Assembly (NCBI GenBank): GCA_030654015.1
Contig: JAURYI010000141.1
Coordinates: forward strand, 1-32,763
Source: Methylococcales bacterium
Lineage (GTDB): Bacteria > Pseudomonadota > Gammaproteobacteria > Methylococcales > Methylomonadaceae
Length of the DNA stretch: 32,763 bases
Direction: 5' to 3'
The first letter of the stretch is position 1; the number at the start of each line of letters is the position of its first letter. A program made the position numbers and the translations under genes. This document shows positions 5,554-32,763 of the stretch, in pieces. The notes below the pieces were generated by a model. That model was not told the DNA's origin, did not search any database, and saw only the letters and a list, made by a program, of their open reading frames with translations.

Positions 5554-5725
5554 GAATCTTCCTCTTTTGTAATTATTGTAAATAGTTATTTTGTTATGAC
5601 ACCAAACCCTACTATTGTATTACAAGTAGGGGTATTAATCGTGGCTTTTCCTGTGCGTTATCAAGCCTATACTATGTGCAGTCATTTTAATTCCCCCGTC
5701 ACCGTTATGCTCTGGAGTCCCGCAC

Positions 5726-6862
5726 ATGAAAAACTACTTATTCACGCTCACCGCCCTGTCTTTATTAGGTTACAGCCTGAATACCCCTGCCGCAGGCCCC
5801 AGCGTCGTTGCCAAAGTGGACAGACACCTGTGGCAAGCCCCGATTAATACGCCCGACAGTTTTGATAAAGCCTCACGCGCCGCCATGCTGGAGTATGTCA
5901 TCGCGTTGGGTAATAGGGGAAAATTATCCGATACCGACATGAAAGCCGCGTTTAACATCAAAACCGTCAATCGCGCCTCCGTCACTCAATGGCTGAATAA
6001 AGAACTCGCCTTATCGTTGCGCAATTATCAACACGCGGCAAAAAATTGTACGAATGAGGATTGGACGTGTATCAGCACACCCACCTCAACCGCCGACCTG
6101 CTCACACAAGCGGATAGCCTAGCAAGCAAAATCCCCCCTAACCTCAGCGCGTGGCACACCAATCTGGCACAATTCAGCCGCGCCTACGTTGCCGAACAAC
6201 TACGCTTAGCGGCATTGTTTCCCCACATCAGCAGTGAAATCGACTTTTTTAATAGTAACGAATGGAACGGCGATAATTTTACCGACCGCCAATTTTTACT
6301 CACCTTTGATGACGGCCCAACCCAAGCCCAAGGTAATACCGACGACACCCTAGCCATGCTTGCCGCTCAGCAAAAAAGCGCGGTATTTTTTGTGCTGGGG
6401 GAAAATTTGCACAACCGCATCGCTAAAACAGATGCCGACACGGTGGCAGCACTGTATAAAAATCAATGCGTCGCCAACCACGGCTGGGAACATCAATCCC
6501 ACGCCAAATGGGCAAACTGGCAAGACTCGATTCAACGCACCCAAGCCTTAATCACCAGCACCTTAACCACAGGCAATGCCTTACCGTTATTCCGCCCGCC
6601 CTACGGACAACGCCAAGCCGACAGCGGCGCGTTTTTTCAACAACAAGGCTTACAAGTGGCATTATGGAATTTAGATTCCCAAGACTGGAATAAACAAGTG
6701 AACAGCGATGACATACTGAATCGCATACTGACCTTAATGCTCATCAAACGGCACGGCGTACTGTTATTCCACGATGTCCACCCCAAAGCCAAAGCCGCGT
6801 TACCGCTGCTATTTAATGAAGTCGGCAATGCGGTTGCATGGCGCGATTGTCATTCGCTATGA
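5726..6862 (+). CDS. Exported polysaccharide deacetylase (NodB-domain)
   Basis: A carbohydrate esterase 4 type enzyme that removes N-acetyl groups from cell-surface or chitin-like polysaccharides, a metal-dependent reaction in the periplasm. The N-terminus (MKNYLFTLTALSLLGYSL, cleavage near TPAAG at 20-24) is a signal peptide. Residues about 30-185 are an extra N-terminal region of unknown role. The NodB domain follows: LLTFDDGP (191-198) with the catalytic and metal Asp pair, NHGWEHQSH (251-259) with metal ligands His252 and His256, RPPYG (290-294), LWNLDSQDW (313-321), and the final LLFHDVHP with His349. The start is the ATG preceded by GGAG. It lies 58 bp before recC on the same strand and may be cotranscribed. 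Confidence 0.92.
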   Translation: MKNYLFTLTALSLLGYSLNTPAAGPSVVAKVDRHLWQAPINTPDSFDKASRAAMLEYVIALGNRGKLSDTDMKAAFNIKTVNRASVTQWLNKELALSLRNYQHAAKNCTNEDWTCISTPTSTADLLTQADSLASKIPPNLSAWHTNLAQFSRAYVAEQLRLAALFPHISSEIDFFNSNEWNGDNFTDRQFLLTFDDGPTQAQGNTDDTLAMLAAQQKSAVFFVLGENLHNRIAKTDADTVAALYKNQCVANHGWEHQSHAKWANWQDSIQRTQALITSTLTTGNALPLFRPPYGQRQADSGAFFQQQGLQVALWNLDSQDWNKQVNSDDILNRILTLMLIKRHGVLLFHDVHPKAKAALPLLFNEVGNAVAWRDCHSL

Positions 6863-22190: not shown

Positions 22191-22440
22191 TCAGCTGAAA
22201 ACACGGTAATAAGAAGCAGGTCACGAAGTTGTTGCTCAATCATCGAGGTCGCTTGTATTTCTACCGTGAATTTATGCGAAGTAGTAGGGCAATTGATCCG
22301 TGATGACATTGATCTGTTACAACAGCTGGAACGAACCGCTATTAAAGTGATTCCCTTTACCCACACACTGTATGCGGCTAATTTTATTCCGCAAACGCAA
22401 CGCTACGGTTTATCGCTGGGTAAAAGTAATAGTTTTTATG
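22190..22440 (+). pseudogene. Degraded PIN-domain (VapC-type) toxin gene
   Basis: Two frames together give pieces of a PIN ribonuclease toxin. A short frame near 22212-22245 reads EAGHEVVAQ. The frame from 22248 reads VACISTVNLCEVVGQLI, the conserved second PIN strand/helix with its Glu. Near 22400 comes RYGLSLG, which in intact proteins continues DRACLALA but here diverges into unrelated residues. So the gene has lost its N-terminus, carries at least one frameshift and lacks its C-terminal acidic residues. No vapB partner is visible. It ends where the cas3 ribosome-binding region begins. Identification is from motif memory, so certainty is moderate. Confidence 0.5.
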
Positions 22441-22461
22441 ACATTCATTCAGAAGGAAATT

Positions 22462-25002
22462 ATGAGCAAAAACAGCAAGAGTACGAATTTGCATCATCAA
22501 GATGATACGCGCTATATCGCCCACGTCCGAAAAACAGACAAAGCGCATCAATCCGTAGCAACTCATTTACATGAGGTCGCAAACATCAGTAAAACATTAG
22601 CAATCAAAATTAACGTACCTGAAGCAGGTGAATTAATTGGCTTGCTGCATGATTTTGGTAAATACAGTACGGCTTTTCAAAACTATATTCAATCCGCGAC
22701 AGGCTTACTTGACCCCGATTGTGATGATGAATATGTCGATTCCAAAGGCTTAAAAGGCAAAATAGACCACTCCACCGCAGGCGCACAGTGGTTGTGGCAA
22801 GCGATGAGTAACATTGGCAAAAATGACGAAGGGAAACTTTGTGGGCAAATACTCGCGTTGTGTATTGCGTCACATCATTCAGGATTAATAGATTGCGTGA
22901 AACCTGATGGTACGAATGAATTTCAGCGGCGCATCGACAAAGACGATGAAAAAACGCATTTGAATGAATGTGAGCAAAATGCAGATACTGACATTTTAGA
23001 AAAGGCGCAACAATTGGTTAAACCCGTTATTTCCGCCTTGTGGAAACAACGCAATGCCATAATGAAAGCCACTCAGCAAAGTGAAATCATCAGACAATTT
23101 TATTTTGGTTTTTTAACTCGTTTTTTATTCAGTTGCTTAATTGATGCCGACCGTATTGACAGTGCTGATTTTGAAAATCCAGAGCAAAAAGCGCATCGCA
23201 ATCAACCTGTCGCTTGGGATATTGCGATAAATCGCTTGGAACTTTTCTTAGTTGAACAACAAAATGAGATTGAACGTAAGCGCGAACAGTTACCCGAAAA
23301 AACACTTCGATTAAATCAAATACGCCGCGACATTTCCGACACTTGCAAAAACCGATCTGAACAGCCGCAAGGCATTTACAGCTTAACTGTTCCAACAGGC
23401 GGCGGTAAAACGTACGCTAGCTTACGTTTTGCGCTGCATCATGCCAAAGCGCATAAGTTAGAACATATTTTCTATATTATTCCTTACACCTCCATTATTG
23501 AACAAAATGCAGACGCAATTCGCAAAGCGGTTGAACATAAAGATGATGAAAAACCTTGGGTGTTAGAGCATCATTCCAATTTAGAACCCGAACAGCAAAC
23601 GTGGCACAGTAAATTAGTCGCTGAAAATTGGGATGCGCCTATTGTCATGACAACGATGGTGCAGTTTTTAGAAACCTTATTTGACGGAGGCACACGCGGG
23701 GTGCGGCGATTGCATCAATTGGCAAACAGCGTGATTATTTTTGATGAAATTCAAACTTTACCGATTAACTGCACGCATTTATTTTGTAACGCACTCAATT
23801 TTTTAACGACTTATACCCATACAACCGCTGTGTTATGCACGGCAACGCAACCGTTATTAGACAAACTCAAAACGCCTGAAAAAGGTCAGCTCATCATTCC
23901 CGAAGGAAATGAATTAATAGGCAACGTGAAAAACGTTAAAGACCTTTTTGAACAGCTCAAACGGGTCGATATTATTAATAAAACTGAACCAGAAGGTTGG
24001 TCAAAAGAAAGGATTGCCGAATTAGCCCTATCAGAATTCGCAAAAAAAGGCAGTTGTTTAGTCATCGTCAATACCAAAGCATGGGCAGAAGCTCTTTACC
24101 GTGAATGCGTTTTGGATGAAAAAAACGAAAAAGAGGAGGTAAAAAAGCAAAAAGTAGATAAAGACAGCGTATTTCACCTCAGCACCCATCAATGTTCCGC
24201 CCACCGCACCGCCATTTTTAACACCATCAAAGAGCGGTTAAAAAACAAACAACCCGTGTTGTGTTTCAGCACACAACTCATTGAAGCGGGCGTGGATATT
24301 TCGTTTGCCAGCGTAATTCGCTTTTTAGCAGGATTAGATTCGATTGCGCAAGCCGCAGGGCGTTGTAATCGAAACGCAGAATTAGAAAAAGCCGAAGTTC
24401 ACGTTATCAACCCCACAAAAGAAACGATTGACCAATTAATCGACATCAACGAAGGGAAAAAACAAACTTCGCGGGTTTTTAGAGAAACGGTCGGGCAAGA
24501 ATTATTAGCCCCTGAAGTCATGCAACGCTATTTTGATTATTATTTTTATGAACGTGCTGATGTGATGGATTATCCCGTTTCAGAAAAACAAGCCGAACGA
24601 AAAGATAGCTTGCTCAATTTACTCAGTGAAAACGCTAAAAACATCGGTGAAAATACACTGTATTTAAAACAATCCTTTATGACGGCAGGCAGAGCTTTTA
24701 AAGCGATTGATGCCCCTATTCACTCCGTCATCGTGCCTTATGAGGAAGGCAAAGAACTGATAACACAATTGTGTGACATTTCAAAAAAGTTCGAGGCGAA
24801 GGCTTTTTATGCGTGTTTGAAAAAAGCGCAAAAGTACAGCGTCAACGTATTTCCTAATGTTTGGCAGAAATTAGTGAAACAAGATGCGATTGCTGAAATT
24901 CAAGGGGAAGGCGTGTTTTATTTAAAAAAATCTTTTTACAGTGATGAGTTTGGTCTGGCAATCGAAGTTGTTGCTAAAGAAGAGCTAGTGTTTTTTGGTT
25001 AA
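22462..25002 (+). CDS. cas3: Type I-C Cas3 helicase-nuclease
   Basis: The 846-residue effector nuclease recruited by Cascade to unwind and degrade target DNA. The HD nuclease is at the N-terminus: HLHEVA (35-40), LLHDFGKYS with the HD pair (63-64), DHSTAGAQW (102-110) and SHHSG (137-141). The SF2 helicase follows: PTGGGKT (311-317), DEIQ (428-431), CTATQP, then STQLIEAGVDISF and the QAAGRCNRNAE motif VI. The C-terminal region is the usual Cas3 domain. The ATG at 22462 was chosen (preceded by AGAAGGAAATT); the frame is open 30 codons further up, but that part overlaps the PIN remnant. The gene is separated from cas5 by 575 bp, unlike the tight spacing of the other cas genes, implying separate transcription. 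Confidence 0.96.
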   Translation: MSKNSKSTNLHHQDDTRYIAHVRKTDKAHQSVATHLHEVANISKTLAIKINVPEAGELIGLLHDFGKYSTAFQNYIQSATGLLDPDCDDEYVDSKGLKGKIDHSTAGAQWLWQAMSNIGKNDEGKLCGQILALCIASHHSGLIDCVKPDGTNEFQRRIDKDDEKTHLNECEQNADTDILEKAQQLVKPVISALWKQRNAIMKATQQSEIIRQFYFGFLTRFLFSCLIDADRIDSADFENPEQKAHRNQPVAWDIAINRLELFLVEQQNEIERKREQLPEKTLRLNQIRRDISDTCKNRSEQPQGIYSLTVPTGGGKTYASLRFALHHAKAHKLEHIFYIIPYTSIIEQNADAIRKAVEHKDDEKPWVLEHHSNLEPEQQTWHSKLVAENWDAPIVMTTMVQFLETLFDGGTRGVRRLHQLANSVIIFDEIQTLPINCTHLFCNALNFLTTYTHTTAVLCTATQPLLDKLKTPEKGQLIIPEGNELIGNVKNVKDLFEQLKRVDIINKTEPEGWSKERIAELALSEFAKKGSCLVIVNTKAWAEALYRECVLDEKNEKEEVKKQKVDKDSVFHLSTHQCSAHRTAIFNTIKERLKNKQPVLCFSTQLIEAGVDISFASVIRFLAGLDSIAQAAGRCNRNAELEKAEVHVINPTKETIDQLIDINEGKKQTSRVFRETVGQELLAPEVMQRYFDYYFYERADVMDYPVSEKQAERKDSLLNLLSENAKNIGENTLYLKQSFMTAGRAFKAIDAPIHSVIVPYEEGKELITQLCDISKKFEAKAFYACLKKAQKYSVNVFPNVWQKLVKQDAIAEIQGEGVFYLKKSFYSDEFGLAIEVVAKEELVFFG

Positions 25003-25090
25003 GATTTAAAGTATAGGAGTAGTAGGGCAATTATTGTCTTCATTGTTATTCCCCGATTGCGCTATCGTTCCATCGGCGATATGGATTAAC

Positions 25091-25114
25091 GTTTTAAATA
25101 CTTTCTATAGTGAA
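25091..25114 (-). promoter_or_regulatory. Candidate Cascade self-target: PAM plus partial protospacer
   Basis: Read on the minus strand, 25114-25112 is TTC, the canonical type I-C PAM. The next 20 nt, ACTATAGAAAGTATTTAAAA (25111-25092), match the pseudo-spacer at 25222-25241 (ACTATTGATAGTATTTACAA) at 17 of 20 positions. Mismatches are at 6, 9 and 18, and matching stops at position 21. The site ends 9 bp before the -35 box of the promoter at 25123-25151, and its seed overlaps a TATAGT (25106-25111) that could be a second -10 box. Confidence 0.75.
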
Positions 25115-25122
25115 GAAAATAT

Positions 25123-25151
25123 TTGACCTGAATCGTTTTGCAAAGTATTAT
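25123..25151 (+). promoter_or_regulatory. Sigma70-type promoter for the pseudo-crRNA and cas5-cas2 operon
   Basis: TTGACC (25123-25128), a 17-bp spacer and TATTAT (25146-25151) form a near-consensus promoter. Transcription would begin near 25158 and read through the degenerate repeat, the parD-like gene and the cas5-8-7-4-1-2 genes, all on the plus strand. Confidence 0.65.
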
Positions 25152-25157
25152 TCTTCC

Positions 25158-25179
25158 GTATGCCACATACATGGCATAC
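25158..25179. promoter_or_regulatory. Operator-like dyad at the predicted start site
   Basis: GTATGCCA (25158-25165) and TGGCATAC (25172-25179) are perfect reverse complements around a 6-bp centre, placed exactly at the predicted transcription start. The spacing fits a dimeric repressor site or a 5' RNA hairpin. The ribbon-helix-helix-like protein encoded at 25341 is one possible binder (inference). Confidence 0.5.
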
Positions 25180-25189
25180 AGATTAAATA

Positions 25190-25221
25190 TTCGCGCCTTA
25201 TACAGGCGCGTGGATTGAAGC
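25190..25221 (+). CRISPR. Solitary degenerate CRISPR repeat between cas3 and cas5
   Basis: Thirty-two nt aligned without gaps to the first array repeat (31626-31657) with 26 identities; differences at positions 1, 9, 10, 12, 15 and 31. The stem-forming segments GCGCC and GGCGC and the 3' handle GTGGATTGAA are kept, so Cas5 could still process it. It has the GCGCC-type stem of the first repeat, not the GCACC type of the rest of the array. No second repeat follows. Confidence 0.85.
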
Positions 25222-25294
25222 ACTATTGATAGTATTTACAAGTGCAAAAAATGTATTGGTTTATATTGCTAGTATCAAATCGGCAATATAAACC
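25222..25294 (+). ncRNA. Pseudo-spacer and 3' hairpin of a crRNA-like regulatory RNA
   Basis: Directly 3' of the degenerate repeat. Positions 25222-25241 pair with the TTC-flanked site at 25092-25111 (17/20). After about 36 nt of pseudo-spacer comes a strong hairpin, GGTTTATATTGC (25258-25269) with GCAATATAAACC (25283-25294), perfect over 12 bp. It could define the 3' end of the RNA in place of a second repeat. Such one-repeat RNAs with partial promoter matches are the hallmark of CreA/CreR regulators in other CRISPR-Cas systems. Confidence 0.65.
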
Positions 25295-25340
25295 TACTAA
25301 TACAAAATTTAATTAATCCACTTAAATTTAGAAGGCAACT

Positions 25341-25523
25341 ATGACCATTTCCGTCACCATCTCTGAATCTTTAATCCAAGCTGCTCGTATGCAAGCAGAT
25401 ATTCAGCATCGTAGTATCAATGAACAAATAGGCTATTGGGCGATGTTAGGCAAAATTGCCGAAGAAAATCCTCATGCACCACTTAAGCTCATTCAAGACT
25501 TTCTGAGAAATGAACCTTGTTGA
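25341..25523 (+). CDS. ParD-like antitoxin / ribbon-helix-helix protein
   Basis: A 60-residue protein: MTISVTISESLIQAARMQAD, then HRSINEQIGYWAMLGKIAEENPHAPLKLIQDFL. This is the pattern of the ParD_like antitoxin family (short beta strand, two helices, RSI.eQI..WA..GKIAE). Such proteins bind DNA as dimers and neutralise a toxin. No toxin gene is adjacent: upstream is the pseudo-crRNA, downstream (54 bp) cas5. It is embedded in the cas transcription unit and so could be a cas regulator or a leftover of a TA pair. The start is ATG with GAAGG about 6 nt upstream. Confidence 0.75.
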   Translation: MTISVTISESLIQAARMQADIQHRSINEQIGYWAMLGKIAEENPHAPLKLIQDFLRNEPC

Positions 25524-25577
25524 TTCTGATAGAAAAATCAATCCAAACAAAAATATTTATTCCAAAGGAGATCCTTA

Positions 25578-26282
25578 GTGGATAATCGCATCAGTTTTAA
25601 ATTATGGGGTCGATATGCTTTATTTACCGACCCTGTCACCCGCACGGGAGGTGAAAAATGTTCTTACCATCTCCCCACTTACGAAGCCATCAAAGGCGTT
25701 CTTAAATCCATTTACTGGAAGCCAACTCTTGTGTGGCACGTTGACAAAGTGCGCGTCATGAAGCCGTTACGCACCCAAACCAAAGGCACAAAACCCTTGA
25801 CTTGGAACGGCGGTAACAGCTTGGCGATTTATACCTTTTTGCGTGATGTCGAATACCAAGTTGAAGCGCATTTTGAATGGAACGAACACCGCCCAGAACT
25901 TGAAGCCGACCGCATTGATGGCAAACATTACAGCATCTTAAAACGCACCTTAGAAAAAGGCGGCAGACAAGATATTTTCTTAGGCACACGCGACTGCCAA
26001 GGTTATGTTGAACCGTGCAAATTTGGCTCAGGTGAAGGTGCGTATGATGGGATTGACGAATTGGGCTTTGGCTTAATGTTTCATAGTTTTGCCTACCCTG
26101 ACGAAACAGGCGGGGAAAATTTAGAAAGCCTGTTTTGGCAAGCAACCCTCAAAAAAGGCATTTTGCAATTTCCTCGTCCTGAAGATTGCGCCACCCGCCG
26201 CATAATTCGACCCATGACCGTCAAACCGTTCGGTATTGGCACGAATTTAAAAGACGTTGCAACAGAAGAGGCGGAATTATGA
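25578..26282 (+). CDS. cas5c: Type I-C Cas5 (Cas5c/Cas5d) pre-crRNA endoribonuclease
   Basis: In type I-C, which lacks Cas6, this 234-residue RAMP protein cuts the CRISPR transcript at the base of the repeat hairpin and stays on the crRNA 5' handle in Cascade. Residues equivalent to the catalytic triad of Bacillus halodurans Cas5d (Tyr46, Lys116, His117) are present at the same numbers: SIYW with Tyr46, and DGKHYS with Lys116-His117. GFGLMFHSFAYPDE and the RPMTVKPFGIG end are family-like. The start is GTG at 25578 with a strong AAAGGAG. Its stop overlaps the cas8c start by 4 nt (ATGA). Confidence 0.95.
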   Translation: MDNRISFKLWGRYALFTDPVTRTGGEKCSYHLPTYEAIKGVLKSIYWKPTLVWHVDKVRVMKPLRTQTKGTKPLTWNGGNSLAIYTFLRDVEYQVEAHFEWNEHRPELEADRIDGKHYSILKRTLEKGGRQDIFLGTRDCQGYVEPCKFGSGEGAYDGIDELGFGLMFHSFAYPDETGGENLESLFWQATLKKGILQFPRPEDCATRRIIRPMTVKPFGIGTNLKDVATEEAEL

Positions 26283-28294
26283 GCTGGATGGAAAAACTCT
26301 ATCAAACGTATGAAGAGAGCATGAAATTAAAAGCCCCTCCCATGCCTATCAGCCACACGCCACAAAATGCACATATCAATATCATCATTGATGGCGCAGG
26401 CAATTTTCGTAGCGCGTCCGTGTTAGAAAAAACGCAAATCATTTTACCCGCTACCGAAGATTCCGCCAGCCGTAGCAGTGGTGAAGCTCCACATCCTTTA
26501 GCGGATAAATTGCAATATATCGCAAAAGATTACGCCGATTTCGGTGGGCAGAAAAAGGCTTATTTTGCTAGTTACGAAACACAACTCAAAAAATGGTGCG
26601 ATTCGGAACAAGGACATGAGCAAGTCAAAGCCGTACTACGTTATGTTCAAAAGGGTTCAATCATTGCGGATTTAGTCGAGCGTAAAATTTTACACCTCGA
26701 TGCGGATAATCAACTTTTAACAACGTGGGAAGGACAAGAAGGCGAACAACCATTATTGTTTAAAGTGCTGCCCAAAGAAAAAGGCACGCTCGACCAAGGT
26801 TCAGCGTTAGTGTGTTGGACGGTTGAAAAAGAAGGTTATAAACCTTCTGAAACGTGGAAAGACTCTACAATCCAAGCCAGTTGGATTGCGTTCGATACAA
26901 CAAACGGCGGCGAAAAAGGCTTGTGTTACATCACAGGACAGGATTGTGCTTTATCCACCAAACACCCTGCGAAAATCCGTCATTCAGGTGATAAAGCCAA
27001 GCTCATTTCATCCAACGATACCAGCGGTTATACCTATCGCGGCAAATTTCTTGAAGACAACCAAGCCTGTGGCATTGGTTTTGAAGTCTCTCAAAAAGCC
27101 CACAATGCGTTAGCGTGGCTGATTCAAAATCAGAAACAAGCCTTTAGAAACGGCGACCAAGTGTATGTGGCGTGGGCGGTGTCAGGTGAAGCTACACCAG
27201 AGCTTTTAAAAGACAGTTATTCACAAATGGCTGAAAACTTTGATGATGAAGCCGATGTAAGTGAAAACGATGCTGAAGAAGAAACCGTACCTTCGACTGA
27301 AGAAGCCGTGAATCATGCCAAAGATTTAGGCGAATCGTATGCGCTTAAACTTAAAAAATACATGGCAGGTTACGCGGCAAAACTGGATGAAGATAAAAAA
27401 GAGCAAATCATCATCATGGGCATTGATTCTGCTACACCTGGCCGCATGGGGATTATTTATTACCGCGAAAAAAACAAGCGTGAATTTTTGGACTGTTTAG
27501 AAAAATGGCACGAAGAATTTGCGTGGTATCAACGTTACACCCAAGAAATTAAGAATGACACGGGCAAAAAACCAAAAACCAAAGTTATTTATCCTGAAAG
27601 CTCCCCTGTGCCGAGAGATATAGCGAAAGCGGCTTATGGTGAAAATGTCAGTGATGATTTAAAGAAAAAAGTTATTGAACGTCTACTGCCCTGCATTGTT
27701 GACGGCTTACCTTTCCCACGCGATTTAATGCAAAGCTGCGTGCGTAAAGCTACTAATCGGGTTGCTTATGCCAACGATGAACAATGGTTATGGGAAAAAA
27801 ACTTAGGCATTACCTGCGCTCTTTTTAAAGGCTATTACGCCAGACACCCTGACACAAACCAACGGAGAACATTTGATATGGCATTAGAAGAAAATTACCA
27901 CTCACGCGATTATCTTTACGGGCGGTTATTAGCCGTTGCTGAATGGATTGAGGAAGATGCTTTAAAAATTACGGGTGAAAATCGCCCCACCAATGCAGCT
28001 CGTTTAATGCAACGTTTCGCCGACCATCCTGCACAAACATGGCTAACGATTTATAAGGCGTTGGACTCTTATATGCAACGTTTACAAGTCTCACCTACTG
28101 GATATTTATTTTATAAAAAGAAAGAGTTAGGAGATATTTTAGAGAAATTTTCTCTTGATGATTACAATAGTAACGCGCCGTTATCGGGTGAGTTTTTATT
28201 AGGTTATTATTGCCAAAGACAAAAACGCTACACTAAATCCACAACAACTGGCGCAACCCCAGACGACACCACATCAGCAGGAGACACAGAATGA
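26279..28294 (+). CDS. cas8c: Type I-C Cas8c (Csd1) large Cascade subunit
   Basis: The 671-residue subunit that recognises the PAM and helps open the DNA. Family features: MSWMEKLYQTYEESMK at the start, HTPQNAHINIIIDGAGNF (about 20-40), EHPLADKLQYIAKDYA-like ASEAPHPLADKLQYIAKD, CYITGQDCALSTKHPAKIR, FRNGDQVYVAWAVSG, IIIMGIDSATPGRMGIIYYRE, and the helical C-terminus. The true start is the ATG at 26279, overlapping the cas5 stop, not the earlier in-frame ATG that would overlap cas5. It overlaps cas7 by 4 nt (ATGA). An acidic spacer (about residues 320-345) may be a linker. An internal start at 27878 probably also yields Cas11c. Confidence 0.95.
   Translation: MSWMEKLYQTYEESMKLKAPPMPISHTPQNAHINIIIDGAGNFRSASVLEKTQIILPATEDSASRSSGEAPHPLADKLQYIAKDYADFGGQKKAYFASYETQLKKWCDSEQGHEQVKAVLRYVQKGSIIADLVERKILHLDADNQLLTTWEGQEGEQPLLFKVLPKEKGTLDQGSALVCWTVEKEGYKPSETWKDSTIQASWIAFDTTNGGEKGLCYITGQDCALSTKHPAKIRHSGDKAKLISSNDTSGYTYRGKFLEDNQACGIGFEVSQKAHNALAWLIQNQKQAFRNGDQVYVAWAVSGEATPELLKDSYSQMAENFDDEADVSENDAEEETVPSTEEAVNHAKDLGESYALKLKKYMAGYAAKLDEDKKEQIIIMGIDSATPGRMGIIYYREKNKREFLDCLEKWHEEFAWYQRYTQEIKNDTGKKPKTKVIYPESSPVPRDIAKAAYGENVSDDLKKKVIERLLPCIVDGLPFPRDLMQSCVRKATNRVAYANDEQWLWEKNLGITCALFKGYYARHPDTNQRRTFDMALEENYHSRDYLYGRLLAVAEWIEEDALKITGENRPTNAARLMQRFADHPAQTWLTIYKALDSYMQRLQVSPTGYLFYKKKELGDILEKFSLDDYNSNAPLSGEFLLGYYCQRQKRYTKSTTTGATPDDTTSAGDTE
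27878..28294 (+). CDS. cas11c: Candidate internally translated Cas11c small subunit
   Basis: Within cas8c and in the same frame (codon 534), ATG at 27878 follows GGAG (27864-27867) with a 10-nt gap. The product, MALEENYHSRDYLYGRLLAV onward, has 138 residues and is the helical C-terminal domain of Cas8c. Type I-C systems are known to make Cas11c this way, from an internal start in cas8c, with several copies lining Cascade. The length and the conserved YGRLLAVAEWIEEDAL helix fit. The internal start is inferred; no experimental proof is available here. Confidence 0.65.
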   Translation: MALEENYHSRDYLYGRLLAVAEWIEEDALKITGENRPTNAARLMQRFADHPAQTWLTIYKALDSYMQRLQVSPTGYLFYKKKELGDILEKFSLDDYNSNAPLSGEFLLGYYCQRQKRYTKSTTTGATPDDTTSAGDTE

Positions 28295-29232
28295 GTTCAT
28301 TAAGCCATAAAATCGACTTCGCCATCATTTTCAGCGTTAATCACGCTAACCCCAACGGCGATCCACTCAATGGTAATCGTCCGCGCACCGATTACGATGG
28401 TTATGGTGAAATGACCGATGTGTGTTTAAAACGCAAAATCCGCGACCGTCTGCAAGAGCAAGGACAAACTATCTTTGTTCAATCCGATGAAAAGAAAATC
28501 GATGGTATGCCTAGTCTGAAAAGTCGTGCTGAATCAACAGAACACGGTTTAGGTAAGGAGGCTTTTAGTTTTGACGGAAAGGATAATACGCCAGATAAAA
28601 TAAAAGAAAAAGCCTGCGAAAAATGGTTCGATGTTCGCGCTTTTGGACAAGTTTTTGCATGGAAAACTGAAAAAAAGAAGGCAAAAAAAGGTAAAAAAGG
28701 GCAACAAAGTGACATTGAAGAAATAGCGTCTGATAGTGAAGTAAAAGAAGGCAGTGAGAGCGTATCAGGAGAGGGCGTTTCCATTGCCATTCGTGGCCCT
28801 GTGACCATTCAATCCGCATTCAGCAAAGAACCTATCAGCATTACCAGCACCCAAATTACCAAAAGCGTTAGCGGTGAAGGCGATGGTAGCAAAAAAGGCT
28901 CAGACACAATGGGCATGAAACACCGTGTAGACCATGCTATCTATGTGACTTACGGCGCAATCACCCCGCAACTCGCCGACAAAACAGGCTTTAGTGATGC
29001 CGATGCAAAAATCATTAAAAACATCTTACCCAAACTCTTTGAAGGCGATGCCTCTTCAGCGCGTCCTGAAGGCTCAATGGCAGTTAAAAAAGTCATCTGG
29101 TGGCAACACAACTCAAAAGCAGGGCAACATTCATCTGCCAGAGTACACGGTTCATTAACAGTTAATACCGATGGTAGCTATGAATTGCAATCACTTGATG
29201 GCTTAACACCCAAAGAAATCGACGGGTTTTAA
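28291..29232 (+). CDS. cas7c: Type I-C Cas7c (Csd2) crRNA backbone subunit
   Basis: The 313-residue protein that polymerises along the crRNA spacer. Seen: KIDFAIIFSVNHANPNGDPLNGNRPRTDYDGYGEMTDVCLKRKIRDR (7-53), KWFDVRAFGQVFAWK (111-125), SIAIRGPVTIQSAFSKEPI (164-182), MGMKHRVDHAIYVTYG (207-222), and the C-terminal VIWWQHNSKAGQHSSARVHG (268-287). Between residues 126 and 162 is a low-complexity stretch, first Lys-rich (KTEKKKAKKGKKG) then acidic (DIEEIASDSEVKEGSE), longer than I expect for Csd2. The start overlaps the cas8c stop (ATGA). Confidence 0.95.
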   Translation: MSSLSHKIDFAIIFSVNHANPNGDPLNGNRPRTDYDGYGEMTDVCLKRKIRDRLQEQGQTIFVQSDEKKIDGMPSLKSRAESTEHGLGKEAFSFDGKDNTPDKIKEKACEKWFDVRAFGQVFAWKTEKKKAKKGKKGQQSDIEEIASDSEVKEGSESVSGEGVSIAIRGPVTIQSAFSKEPISITSTQITKSVSGEGDGSKKGSDTMGMKHRVDHAIYVTYGAITPQLADKTGFSDADAKIIKNILPKLFEGDASSARPEGSMAVKKVIWWQHNSKAGQHSSARVHGSLTVNTDGSYELQSLDGLTPKEIDGF

Positions 29233-29272: not shown

Positions 29273-29316
29273 GACGACCAATTGAAGCGTGGATAGTATC
29301 TCTTTTTGCTCATAAA

Positions 29317-29505
29317 GCAGCACCCCACGCGGGTGCGTCACTGCCATTAAGCTAAGAAAAACTATGTCATTGCGGCAGGGATTGCCGCAATCCAGAAGCC
29401 AAGGATGGCGTACACTCGAAACACATCCCTGTGATTGGATTCCAGCATCCATGCTGGAATGACGGCTTAACTTAATGGCAGTGACGCGGGTGCGTAGATT
29501 GAAAC
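29317..29505 (+). CRISPR. Solitary CRISPR repeat split by an insertion
   Basis: Left part 29317-29338 (GCACCCCACGCGGGTGCGT at 29320-29338) and right part 29484-29505 (ACGCGGGTGCGT then AGATTGAAAC) together rebuild one GCACC-type repeat with a change at the first bases and one G to A near the 3' end. The 12 bp ACGCGGGTGCGT is present on both sides of a 145-bp insert, as a target duplication. No array lies nearby, so this is an orphan repeat between cas7 and cas4. Confidence 0.8.
29339..29483. mobile_element. MITE-like 145-bp element in the orphan repeat
   Basis: The terminal inverted repeats CACTGCCATTAAG (29339-29351) and CTTAATGGCAGTG (29471-29483) are perfect over 13 bp, and extend by 4 bp (GCGT/ACGC) because the flanking repeat is itself palindromic. 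Inside are two smaller dyads, TTGCGGCA/TGCCGCAA (about 29370-29390) and TTCCAGCATCCATGCTGGAA (29440-29459). It has no coding capacity, so it would need a transposase in trans. The flanking duplication is 12 bp (8 bp if the terminal repeats include GCGT). Confidence 0.75.
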
Positions 29506-29521
29506 TTAACCTAAGGCAACC

Positions 29522-30148
29522 ATGCAAACCCTAGAACCTATTTACCTCTCACGCCTACAACATTACCTTTTCTGTCCTAGACAATTCGGATTGATTGAAC
29601 TCGAAGACATCTGGACAGAAAACCAATGGACAGCAGAAGGGCAAGTGCTACATCAAAAAGTCAATCAGCCAGACCAACAAAAACGCGGCTCAATCAGAAC
29701 CGCGTGGGCGTTACGATTGGCAAATGAACAACTGGGCATTGAAGGCATTGCTGATGTAGTGGAATATCACAAACAAGCGGATGGGATAGAAATACCCTAT
29801 CCGATTGAATACAAACGCGGCAAACCCAAAACACACCGCGCCGATGAAGTACAACTGTGCGCCCAAGCACTTTGTTTAGAAGAAATGCACAACGTAACCG
29901 TACCCGAAGGCGCGTTATTTTACGGTGAAGTTCGCCGACGGCATCCTGTGATTTTTAATACAGAATTGCGTGATTTAACCCTGAAAACCATTTTAGCCTG
30001 TCGTACTATAGTGCAAACTAAAATCACTCCCAAAGCACAGTATCAAGCTAAAAAATGTAAAGCCTGCTCACTCATTGACCAATGCCATCCCAACGGTTTT
30101 AGCAAATCAGCGGCGGCATGGTTAGCTAATCAATTGACAGAGAATTAA
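29522..30148 (+). CDS. cas4: Type I-C Cas4 nuclease
   Basis: A 208-residue RecB-like Fe-S nuclease that trims prespacers and ensures PAM choice during spacer acquisition. An Fe-S cluster is predicted from Cys18 (FCPRQ) and Cys179, Cys182, Cys188 (KKCKACSLIDQCHPNG). RecB motifs: GIADVVE (Asp78), PIEYKRGK (Glu96, Lys98) and DEVQLCAQAL. It starts with ATG after AAGG (29514-29517). It is 2 bp from cas1, consistent with the Cas4-Cas1-Cas2 adaptation unit. The orphan repeat and MITE lie directly upstream. Confidence 0.95.
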   Translation: MQTLEPIYLSRLQHYLFCPRQFGLIELEDIWTENQWTAEGQVLHQKVNQPDQQKRGSIRTAWALRLANEQLGIEGIADVVEYHKQADGIEIPYPIEYKRGKPKTHRADEVQLCAQALCLEEMHNVTVPEGALFYGEVRRRHPVIFNTELRDLTLKTILACRTIVQTKITPKAQYQAKKCKACSLIDQCHPNGFSKSAAAWLANQLTEN

Positions 30149-30150
30149 CT

Positions 30151-31173
30151 ATGCGCCCTTTACGCAACGTCATTTATATTCAAACGCAAAATTCTTGGTT
30201 GCATAAAGATAATGATAATCTGGTCTTAAAAGTGGATAAGGAAACTATAGGTCGTGTACCTATCCATAAATTACAAGGCTTAATCTGTTTTGGACAAGTC
30301 ACCATTTCGCCTTACCTAATGGCGCACTGTGCAGAAAACGGCATTACTATCACCTTTCTAAATCTGTATGGTAAATACCTCGCCAGAGTAGAAGGCCCTG
30401 TTAGTGGCAATGTATTATTACGCCGTACCCAACACCTAACAGGGCATGATGTAGAAAAAAGTGTGGCGATTGCTCAAACTATGTTGACGGGAAAGCTATA
30501 TAACCAGCGATATGTGCTTAGGCGATATATCCGCGATCACGGCGATGATAACGCAGTTGAAACCTTGCAAGCCGCTGAACAACAAATAACGCGCTACCTA
30601 GCACACCTACCAACCTGCGACAGCATAGACACGCTGATGGGATACGAAGGCAAAGCGGCAACCGAATATTTTGCCGTCTTTAAACATCTAATACGCCAGC
30701 CTAATTTTGAATTCGACACTCGCAGACGAAGACCACCGACCGACCCTGTTAATGCGTTATTATCGTTTTGTTATACCCTGCTAATACATGATTGTCGTAG
30801 CGCATTAGAAACCACAGGGCTTGATCCTGCCAGTGGATTCTTACACCAACTACGCAGCGGCAGACCATCTTTGGCATTAGATTTAGTCGAAGAACTGAGA
30901 CCAATGGTTGACCGTTTCGTATTATCACTCATCAACAAACGACAGTTAGTTATCAAAGATTTTGAAACCCTGCCTAATGGTTCAGTCGTTCTAAAAGATG
31001 AAGCGCGTAAAACACTCTTAGCTGCATGGCAAGATAGAAAACAAGACACCCTACTGCATCCGTGGTTTGAAGAAACCGTGCCTGTCGGTTTATTACCTTG
31101 GTTGCAAGCCCAAGTATTAGCGCGATTTTTACGCGGCGATTGTGATAGTTATGTACCATTTTTGTGGAAATAA
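30151..31173 (+). CDS. cas1: Cas1 integrase (type I-C)
   Basis: A 340-residue metal-dependent integrase that inserts new spacers at the leader end of the array, as a Cas1-Cas2 complex with Cas4. Catalytic residues are visible: Glu166 in GYEGKAA, His232 in GFLHQ, and Asp244 with Glu247/Glu248 in ALDLVEELRP. The N-terminal beta domain opens MRPLRNVIYIQTQNSWL. The length is typical. It starts 2 bp after the cas4 stop, so it is translationally linked. Confidence 0.97.
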   Translation: MRPLRNVIYIQTQNSWLHKDNDNLVLKVDKETIGRVPIHKLQGLICFGQVTISPYLMAHCAENGITITFLNLYGKYLARVEGPVSGNVLLRRTQHLTGHDVEKSVAIAQTMLTGKLYNQRYVLRRYIRDHGDDNAVETLQAAEQQITRYLAHLPTCDSIDTLMGYEGKAATEYFAVFKHLIRQPNFEFDTRRRRPPTDPVNALLSFCYTLLIHDCRSALETTGLDPASGFLHQLRSGRPSLALDLVEELRPMVDRFVLSLINKRQLVIKDFETLPNGSVVLKDEARKTLLAAWQDRKQDTLLHPWFEETVPVGLLPWLQAQVLARFLRGDCDSYVPFLWK

Positions 31174-31185
31174 GGAACACTTAAC

Positions 31186-31479
31186 ATGATGATTTTATTG
31201 ACTTACGATGTTAATTTCAAAAACGATACAGGAGGTGCATCGCGCCTGCGTAAAATATCCAAATTATGTCAAGTGTATGGACAGCGCGTTCAATACTCAG
31301 TTTTTGAAATAGAAGTAGATATGGCGCAATGGACAAAATTAAAAAATGCCCTGTGTGCCATTATGGACGAATCTGTCGATAGCCTAAGATTTTACTATTT
31401 AGGTAACAATTGGGAGCGGCGAGTTGAACACATAGGTGCTAAAGCCGTATTAGATTTAAATGGTTTGTTATTACTGTAA
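31186..31479 (+). CDS. cas2: Cas2 (type I-C)
   Basis: The 97-residue ferredoxin-fold partner of Cas1. MMILLTYDV with Asp8, RLRKISKLCQVYGQRVQYSVFEIEVD and LRFYYLG are standard. Two ATGs lie in tandem (31186, 31189); the AAGGAAC at 31172-31178, overlapping the cas1 stop, serves either. It is the last gene of the operon, before the leader. Confidence 0.97.
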   Translation: MMILLTYDVNFKNDTGGASRLRKISKLCQVYGQRVQYSVFEIEVDMAQWTKLKNALCAIMDESVDSLRFYYLGNNWERRVEHIGAKAVLDLNGLLLL

Positions 31480-31625: not shown

Positions 31626-32763
31626 GTCGCGCCCCACACGGGCGCGTGGATTGAAACGCAATTAATAGCTTTATTCGCTATTAAATTCAATTAGTTGGGC
31701 ATAGGCTGTCGCACCCCACGCGGGTGCGTGGATTGAAACCCGTAGCGTCAGTAATGCAGTCAGGATTAGAAGGTCGCACCCCACGCGGGTGCGTGGATTG
31801 AAACGTCTATCTCACGATAGATATTTTGTAGTAAATGTCGCACCCCACGCGGGTGCGTGGATTGAAACTTTACCAACTGCTTCCGCTGCTGCTGCTGCTG
31901 CGTCGCACCCCACGCGGGTGCGTGGATTGAAACATAGAAAACCCTTTTGATATTGAAAAAATAATGTCGCACCCCACGCGGGTGCGTGGATTGAAACGGG
32001 GCAACGCATAAAAGACAGGCTGGCGGGGTCGTCGCACCCCACGCGGGTGCGTGGATTGAAACAAAACAACAAGCGAAACAAGCATTTTCGTTTTGTCGCA
32101 CCCCACGCGGGTGCGTGGATTGAAACCACAAGCTGCTCAACTTAACAAAGTTTAACCGTGTCGCACCCCACGCGGGTGCGTGGATTGAAACTTCCCCCGC
32201 TAGATTTTTTTGCCCCTATGTCAGGTCGCACCCCACGCGGGTGCGTGGATTGAAACAGACTCAACATCAATCTTGAGTTGAGGTATCGTGTCGCACCCCA
32301 CGCGGGTGCGTGGATTGAAACATCATCCAATAACGGCAGTGGTCTTGGCGTCGGGTCGCACCCCACGCGGGTGCGTGGATTGAAACCACTACACAATATC
32401 TTTTATTTCAACCTATATGTCGCACCCCACGCGGGTGCGTGGATTGAAACATTAAATACTTCAACGGCGGTGTCCAGATACGGTCGCACCCCACGCGGGT
32501 GCGTGGATTGAAACGCGCAACTGCCCGACCGTCATACCAAAAGCATCGTCGCACCCCACGCGGGTGCGTGGATTGAAACGGATCACTGCTGTCTGTGCCA
32601 ATCCTAGGGATTGTCGCACCCCACGCGGGTGCGTGGATTGAAACATACTCGTCTGTTAGCCATCGGTTCAGATTCAGGTCGCACCCCACGCGGGTGCGTG
32701 GATTGAAACATGATGATGCCGATCATGTGCTTACGCCCAGTGTCGCACCCCACGCGGGTGCGT
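31626..32763 (+). CRISPR. Type I-C CRISPR array, 18 repeats seen (last one cut by window edge)
   Basis: The repeat is 32 nt, starting GTCGCACCCCACGCGGG and ending GTGGATTGAAAC, with a stem from GCACCC and GGGTGC. Repeats start at 31626, 31708, 31773, 31837, 31902, 31966, 32031, 32095, 32160, 32225, 32290, 32355, 32419, 32483, 32548, 32613, 32678 and 32742 (partial). Spacers are 32-33 nt, except the first, which is 50 nt (31658-31707). The first repeat differs: GCGCCCCACACGGGCGC, with paired changes that keep the stem. All other complete repeats are identical by eye. Transcription is expected rightward from the leader. Confidence 0.98.

Follow-up and report, generated by a model that had tools for sequence, protein, structure and literature searches.

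A probable CreR-like guide RNA in the cas3-cas5 gap of type I-C CRISPR-Cas loci of the Methylomonadaceae

What is the role of a single degenerate CRISPR (clustered regularly interspaced short palindromic repeats) repeat that stands between cas3 and cas5, outside the array? The question is raised by contig JAURYI010000141.1 of a Methylococcales bacterium of the family Methylomonadaceae (assembly GCA_030654015.1), the 32,763 nucleotides of which are hereafter designated the window, and which carries a type I-C locus in the order of cas3, a 575-bp gap, cas5-cas8c-cas7-cas4-cas1-cas2, and the array. An earlier note on this DNA had proposed that the repeat and the pseudo-spacer behind it form a CreR/CreA-like RNA directing Cascade to its own promoter. 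Its reading is supported by pairing in all four loci that can be judged, three co-changes of guide and target, and a covarying 3′ hairpin. We consider it very probable that the element is an autoregulatory guide RNA of type I-C, resembling cas-regulating RNA (CreR), which would autorepress cas5-cas2.

The gap contains, in order, a minus-strand target with its protospacer adjacent motif (PAM), a promoter, a palindrome, the lone repeat, the pseudo-spacer, a hairpin, and an open reading frame (ORF) for a ParD-like protein. The lone repeat (25,190–25,221, plus strand), the one ectopic repeat in the gap, is identical to the array repeat at 23 of 32 positions and at 13 of the final 14, leaving the handle at its 3′ end nearly intact; its stem shows two compensated changes, A-U to G-C and C-G to U-A, as compared by eye between two sequences. 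It is followed by a pseudo-spacer of 36 nt (25,222–25,257, plus strand), the regular spacers of the window array being 32–33 nt long, and then by a hairpin of 12 perfect pairs with a 13-nt loop (25,258–25,294, plus strand), which was found by folding, occupies the place of a next repeat's hairpin, and is proposed to be the 3′ end of the guide RNA. Both the degenerate repeat and the 12-bp hairpin instead of a second repeat were thus found where the earlier note had placed them. Rfam gave a single sub-threshold match in 24,990–25,600, on the opposite strand (E 0.36).

Over its first 20 nt, the pseudo-spacer matches a minus-strand site (25,092–25,111) at 17 positions, starting from spacer position 1 directly beside a TTC PAM (25,112–25,114, minus strand; GAA on the plus strand), and the mismatches are at positions 6, 9, and 18, as had been claimed. 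A passage of PMC8406640 gives TTC as the I-C PAM in Xanthomonas oryzae. The promoter on the plus strand consists of a −35 box, TTGACC (25,123–25,128), and a −10 box, TATTAT (25,146–25,151), spaced by 17 bp; 8 bp lie between the PAM and the −35 box, in agreement with the predicted location of the target just upstream of this box, and 38 bp between the −10 box and the lone repeat. At positions 21–34 only 5 of 14 match the target. As for the handle, the earlier note had stated that it agrees with the target flank only at −1; position −1 does agree, but so do −6 and −7 (3 of 12 in all).

One alternative is that the match arose by chance or through a plain inverted duplication without guide function, the arms of which were perhaps kept alike by gene conversion. 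As to chance, none of 20,000 shuffled window spacers reached 14/16 or 17/20 at any TTC site of the surrounding kb, of which there are 43, and when TTC or TTT sites were allowed, 4 of 20,000 reached 14/16 and 2 of 20,000 reached 17/20. An empirical null was built from 464 array spacers of 20 loci (4 of the 24 family loci described below yielded none) set against four gap regions; the best of these 1,856 comparisons reached 12/16 with TTC as the PAM and 13/16 when TTT was accepted as well, with none at 14/16. Moreover, a 20-letter pattern (TTC plus spacer positions 1–17, at most 3 mismatches) was scanned through the organism's own genome (3.66 Mb, 141 contigs). Apart from the pseudo-spacer, it matched the promoter site with 2 mismatches and, with 3, a single other site, which is inside a listed ORF on another contig; within these limits, the promoter site is the best TTC-anchored match. 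These comparisons confirm that the opposite-strand match in the window is real and beyond chance.

The family was surveyed by a Cas5 search of 237 genomes, yielding 24 loci at E ≤1e-40, the window included; 14 weaker Cas5 loci (L013–L026) stood outside the survey. Five of the 24 bear a handle-bearing lone repeat in the cas3-cas5 gap, namely the window, L044, L050, L062, and L042, the latter four in genomes G034, G113, G109, and G239, respectively. Detection relies on a recognisable TGGATTGAAAC handle, and more degenerate copies would therefore be missed. In a wider survey of genome contigs, 80 of 272 loci were kept, 15 of which share sequence with the 24 family loci, and the element was present in the cas3-cas5 gap solely in L068 and L079, which are the contigs of L050 (Methylobacter sp. 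LH_M5) and L062 (Candidatus Methylobacter oryzae KRF1). The other 65 loci gave no cas3-cas5 case, some having a short upstream sequence (204 bp in L085); whole arrays lie upstream in L115 and L121. A class sample of 369 genomes, with 9 loci in 7 genomes outside the family, gave no handle with at most 2 mismatches in 14 within 1.5 kb upstream of cas5.

In all four carriers having the promoter on the contig, the pseudo-spacer matches the opposite strand just upstream of a sigma-70-like promoter. The matches over 20 positions are 17 in the window, 15 in L044 (15 of the first 16), 17 in L050, and 18 in L062, and those over the first 16 are 14, 15, 14 (at TTT), and 16, respectively; 5, 5, 4, and 1 of 14 follow at positions 21–34. 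L050 has TTT as its PAM, against TTC in the other three loci, and the distance from the PAM to the −35 box is 8 bp in the window, L044, and L050 and 1 bp in L062. None of 20,000 shuffles was as good as the match of L062, or as that of L044 over 16 nt. Guide and promoter target are conserved as a pair in 4/4 carriers in which this can be judged, the window among them, so that the test set in advance, conservation of the pairing in relatives, came out positive, in L050 with a TTT PAM.

L044 and L050 look like homologous copies in the alignment, and three differences between their guides (T to C at position 1, A to T at 5, and T to A at 12) are each mirrored in the target. Of the four loci, only L062 is matched at position 6; type I Cascade flips out each sixth base of the guide, so that this position should be free. 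In the three-way alignment, the window also appears to have two extra bases beside the handle in the guide and beside the PAM in the target, which is only suggestive. An inverted duplication would be in keeping with the short distance between the arms in three loci (102–122 bp), and gene conversion could imitate the three co-changes. Against this stand the start of all four matches at spacer position 1 beside TTC (TTT in L050), the low agreement of the handle (3/12 in the window) together with the end of the match at 16–20, and the mismatch at position 6 in three of the four loci; moreover, the arms of L062 are 458 bp apart and yet match best. With the shuffles and the real-spacer controls also falling short of the observed matches, we regard chance or duplication as highly unlikely.

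A 3′ hairpin follows all five copies. Those of the window, L044, and L050 can be aligned, and 5 of their 15 pairs are changed on both sides. In this comparison, limited to three sequences, shuffles averaged 1.7 such pairs, 2 of 500 reaching 5 or more, and slid controls gave 0 or 1. The hairpins of L062 and L042 differ in sequence and occupy a similar place. The window, L044, and L062 (in which the repeat is split by an insert) have one repeat plus the hairpin, and L042 has two repeats. In the latter (reverse complement, about 259–414), a hairpin separates the two lone repeats, and the second of them reaches almost to the start codon of cas5; this layout could connect the two-repeat mini-CRISPRs with the form that has one repeat.

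Several observations weigh against autorepression by this element. It is absent in 19 of the 24 family loci (in L054, one of these, the sequence upstream of cas5 is just 411 bp long), and the promoter hexamers of the window are not statistically special, with 2 promoter-like sites vs a shuffle mean of 2.8. Over 20 nt, the match of L044 is weaker, as 7 of 20,000 shuffles were as good at TTC and 32 of 20,000 with TTT. In L050, the PAM is TTT and a TTC-only match is not significant (6,960 of 20,000 shuffles as good over 16 nt); its repeat also bears the handle in a tandem copy. L042, with its two lone repeats, shows no match in the available sequence, and its target cannot be judged because the contig ends 415 bp upstream of cas5. 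Finally, the carriers are not brought together in the cas5 tree (4 changes; 134 of 500 shuffles no higher) or in the cas1 tree (5 changes; 500 of 500 no higher), a pattern that fits exchange of the downstream genes.

In the cas3 tree (21 rows), by contrast, all four carriers whose contig includes cas3 group in a single clade with a support of 99/98, and none of 500 shuffles scored as low. When the partial cas3 of L060 was added (22 rows), L060 fell inside this clade; its cas3-cas5 junction is short and without a repeat, which is therefore likely a loss. From the three trees taken together, the element most likely arose once and stayed with cas3, its guide apparently changing together with the target. 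A phage-derived decoy repeat (Racr-like) that titrates Cas proteins would have a precedent in the solitary repeats mimicking CRISPR repeats known from phages, as described in parts of PMC10651486; the element, however, is in the cas operon, follows the cas3 phylogeny, and has a matching promoter target, and the likelihood of a decoy is negligible.

How, then, would a CreR-like guide work at this locus? We propose that the transcript from the promoter at 25,123–25,151 starts just ahead of the lone repeat and runs via the ParD-like gene into cas5-cas2. Cas5c is the processing nuclease of type I-C, which is without Cas6; indeed, Cas6 was not among the 10 window proteins scanned with Pfam, the rest of the genome not having been searched for it. 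Cas5c would cleave below the repeat stem to give a 5′ handle plus pseudo-spacer, and the processed RNA, within 25,190–25,294, is expected to begin with a handle that ends in GAUUGAAGC. Located 36 nt further along, the 12-bp hairpin would set or protect the 3′ end of the guide, replacing the hairpin of a next repeat. Guide-loaded Cascade may then occupy the TTC-flanked site against the −35 box and block RNA polymerase without licensing Cas3, since pairing fades after about 16–20 of some 34 positions and binding without Cas3 activation is thus expected. More free Cascade would mean less cas5-cas2 transcription, and the repression would ease when Cascade is occupied by ordinary CRISPR RNAs (crRNAs) or anti-CRISPRs. 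Because cas3 lies upstream, the predicted controlled unit is cas5-cas2 plus the ParD-like gene, and not cas3.

The same repeat could serve only as an RNA-processing site, at which Cas5c cuts the leader of the cas mRNA and separates or destabilises the messages, the guide match being secondary. The window repeat does keep its stem by compensating changes and sits in the presumed mRNA leader, and such cleavage is compatible with CreR-like autorepression and may add to it. Processing as the sole function would leave the co-change of guide and target and the position of the target at the −35 box unexplained, and is exceedingly improbable.

A further alternative is brought up by the gene behind the hairpin. 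It encodes a ParD-like, antitoxin-type protein of 60 residues (25,341–25,523, plus strand; PF11903, E 8.1e-15, positions 3–54 of 73) within the proposed cas5-cas2 transcription unit, and L062 has an ORF of 50 residues between promoter and repeat (reverse complement, 5708–5860), L042 another of the same size before its first repeat (reverse complement, about 97–249). The two ORFs had no NCBIfam match, and Pfam gave E 0.099 (weak) for the former and nothing for the latter; they could be cargo under the same control. An addiction module of the CreTA/CrePA type, in which the guide represses a toxin gene so that loss of Cascade harms the cell, would draw on the antitoxin-type gene and on these ORFs of L062 (family unknown) and L042. 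In the window, however, merely 38 bp separate the −10 box from the repeat, and ORFs of at least 20 residues touching this interval all extend into the repeat from a start within or ahead of the promoter. The sole ORF above 45 residues in the gap is the ParD-like one, an antitoxin type; between it and cas5 no toxin-like gene was seen among ORFs of at least 20 residues. By eye, L044 and L050 have no room for a further gene. Among the ORFs that can be assigned to a family, only the ParD-like one and the cas genes follow the window promoter, and none is a toxin gene. We hold an addiction module to be very improbable.

The ParD-like protein may act as an orphan, DNA-binding regulator on the window promoter, although this is a guess. 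A perfect 8+8 bp palindrome, GTATGCCA-N6-TGGCATAC (25,158–25,179), is located near the expected transcription start and is a candidate operator of the protein; no second perfect copy was found in the genome, and the palindrome was not seen in L044 and L050, both of which also lack the ParD-like gene. The palindrome was also considered as an operator common to a ParD-like paralog on contig C20 (L002), which has 71 residues and is directly behind another ORF, with no promoter of its own seen; the small ORF directly downstream of the paralog looks, by eye, like a RelE/ParE-type toxin. The window protein has about 11 residues fewer near the C-terminus than this paralog, and the ParD-like proteins of other family genomes have frames of at least 72 residues among the rows listed, where frames may exceed the protein. 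In the alignment (A3), row L147 was out of frame and unused, and the other rows were cut at the match ends.

It is possible, though we doubt it, that all these parts act jointly, namely a leader-derived guide, a double feedback through Cas5c, a hairpin 3′ end, co-drift with cas3, and a ParD-like brake. Each cut by Cas5c would then make a repressor guide and behead one cas5-cas2 message, before Cascade shuts the promoter. The covarying hairpin would be a dedicated 3′ end in place of the second repeat, and the guide-target pair would be re-tuned when cas5-cas2 is exchanged, within a lineage that moves with cas3. In this strain, the orphan ParD-like protein and the start-site palindrome would provide a second, protein-based brake.

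The remainder of the locus, all on the plus strand, carries the I-C gene set, as judged by the Pfam scan. It comprises cas3 (22,372–25,002; Cas3 helicase and HD domains), ending just upstream of the element; cas5 (25,578–26,282; PF09704), encoding the I-C Cas5d/Cas5c protein and proposed processing nuclease; cas8c (csd1; 26,186–28,294, PF09709), the true start of which is probably inside the ORF as listed; cas7 (28,291–29,232; PF05107); cas4 (29,522–30,148; PF01930); cas1 (30,151–31,173; PF01867); and cas2 (31,186–31,479; PF09827). The array (31,708–32,763) has regular repeats and runs off the window. Its leader contains an extra repeat (31,626–31,657), 50 bp ahead of the first regular one, that looks like an ectopic insertion or replacement. 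This repeat with its 50-nt "spacer" was considered as a second regulator and rejected, because the same leader is uninterrupted in relatives and the repeat hence sits inside the leader; the "spacer" had no TTC PAM among its ten best window matches. In the cas7-cas4 gap (29,316–29,505), a copy of the CRISPR repeat is apparently split by an element of about 150 bp resembling a miniature inverted-repeat transposable element (MITE), and the lone repeat of L062 is interrupted by an element of similar appearance (around 5885–6070 of the reverse complement). By eye, it is as if these elements preferred CRISPR-repeat palindromes. A lone repeat-like sequence also lies at 133–164 of L095, an I-C locus on a contig labelled as a Cyclobacteriaceae metagenome-assembled genome, about 75 bp before the apparent cas3 start. 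No TTC target above 9/20 was found nearby, the contig beginning 132 bp upstream; this repeat is a candidate for a further regulator, or for the last repeat of a lost array.

How does the element relate to known systems? CreR mini-CRISPRs typically have two repeats. CreR was reportedly described by Liu et al. (2023, Cell Host Microbe), and Shmakov et al. (2023, Nucleic Acids Research, NAR) are said to have listed standalone-repeat regulatory elements, predicted to be crRNA-like, near cas genes and with partial promoter complementarity. According to parts of PMC12737573, PMC13131331, and PMC12948488, CreR is a crRNA-like RNA with a partial match to a cas promoter that mediates autorepression by the effector; sections of PMC13131331 report autorepression through partial promoter complementarity in types I-B, I-E, and V-A, and one of PMC12948488 describes a mini-CRISPR regulatory RNA. 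The element shares with CreR an ectopic degenerate repeat beside cas genes, a retained handle, and a partial cas-promoter match with a PAM. It differs in belonging to type I-C, in its single repeat with a covarying 3′ hairpin where CreR has a two-repeat mini-CRISPR, and in the location of the guide, which is presumably part of the cas mRNA leader. The typical second repeat is missing from the window; it is not strictly required, CreA having one or two. All the other CreR features that can be judged from the sequence are present, and we therefore use the term CreR-like. CreA of the CreTA system (type I-B, haloarchaea) has, as far as parts of PMC9458426 describe it, one or mostly two degenerate ectopic repeats and directs Cascade to repress transcription. 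A degenerate ectopic repeat guiding repression by Cascade is what we propose here too, whereas CreA represses a toxin RNA and no toxin is seen here. Racr, for which we know of no promoter target, shares the solitary repeat unit. It is a phage-borne repeat mimic according to parts of PMC10651486, whereas the element lies between cas3 and cas5 and has a promoter target. Literature searches judged by title or the start of the abstract gave no I-C CreR, from which absence from print cannot be claimed, and gave no description of a hairpin-ended guide replacing the second repeat. The element would be a new, I-C variant of CreR with one repeat and a 3′ hairpin.

If this reading is true, RNA-guided self-control of CRISPR extends to type I-C. 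The natural series of co-changed guide-target pairs may allow the minimal pairing for binding without cleavage to be read from evolution, and a simple guide design, with one repeat and a hairpin end, would be on offer. Such I-C hosts would sense their crRNA load and anti-CRISPRs through cas5-cas2 expression.
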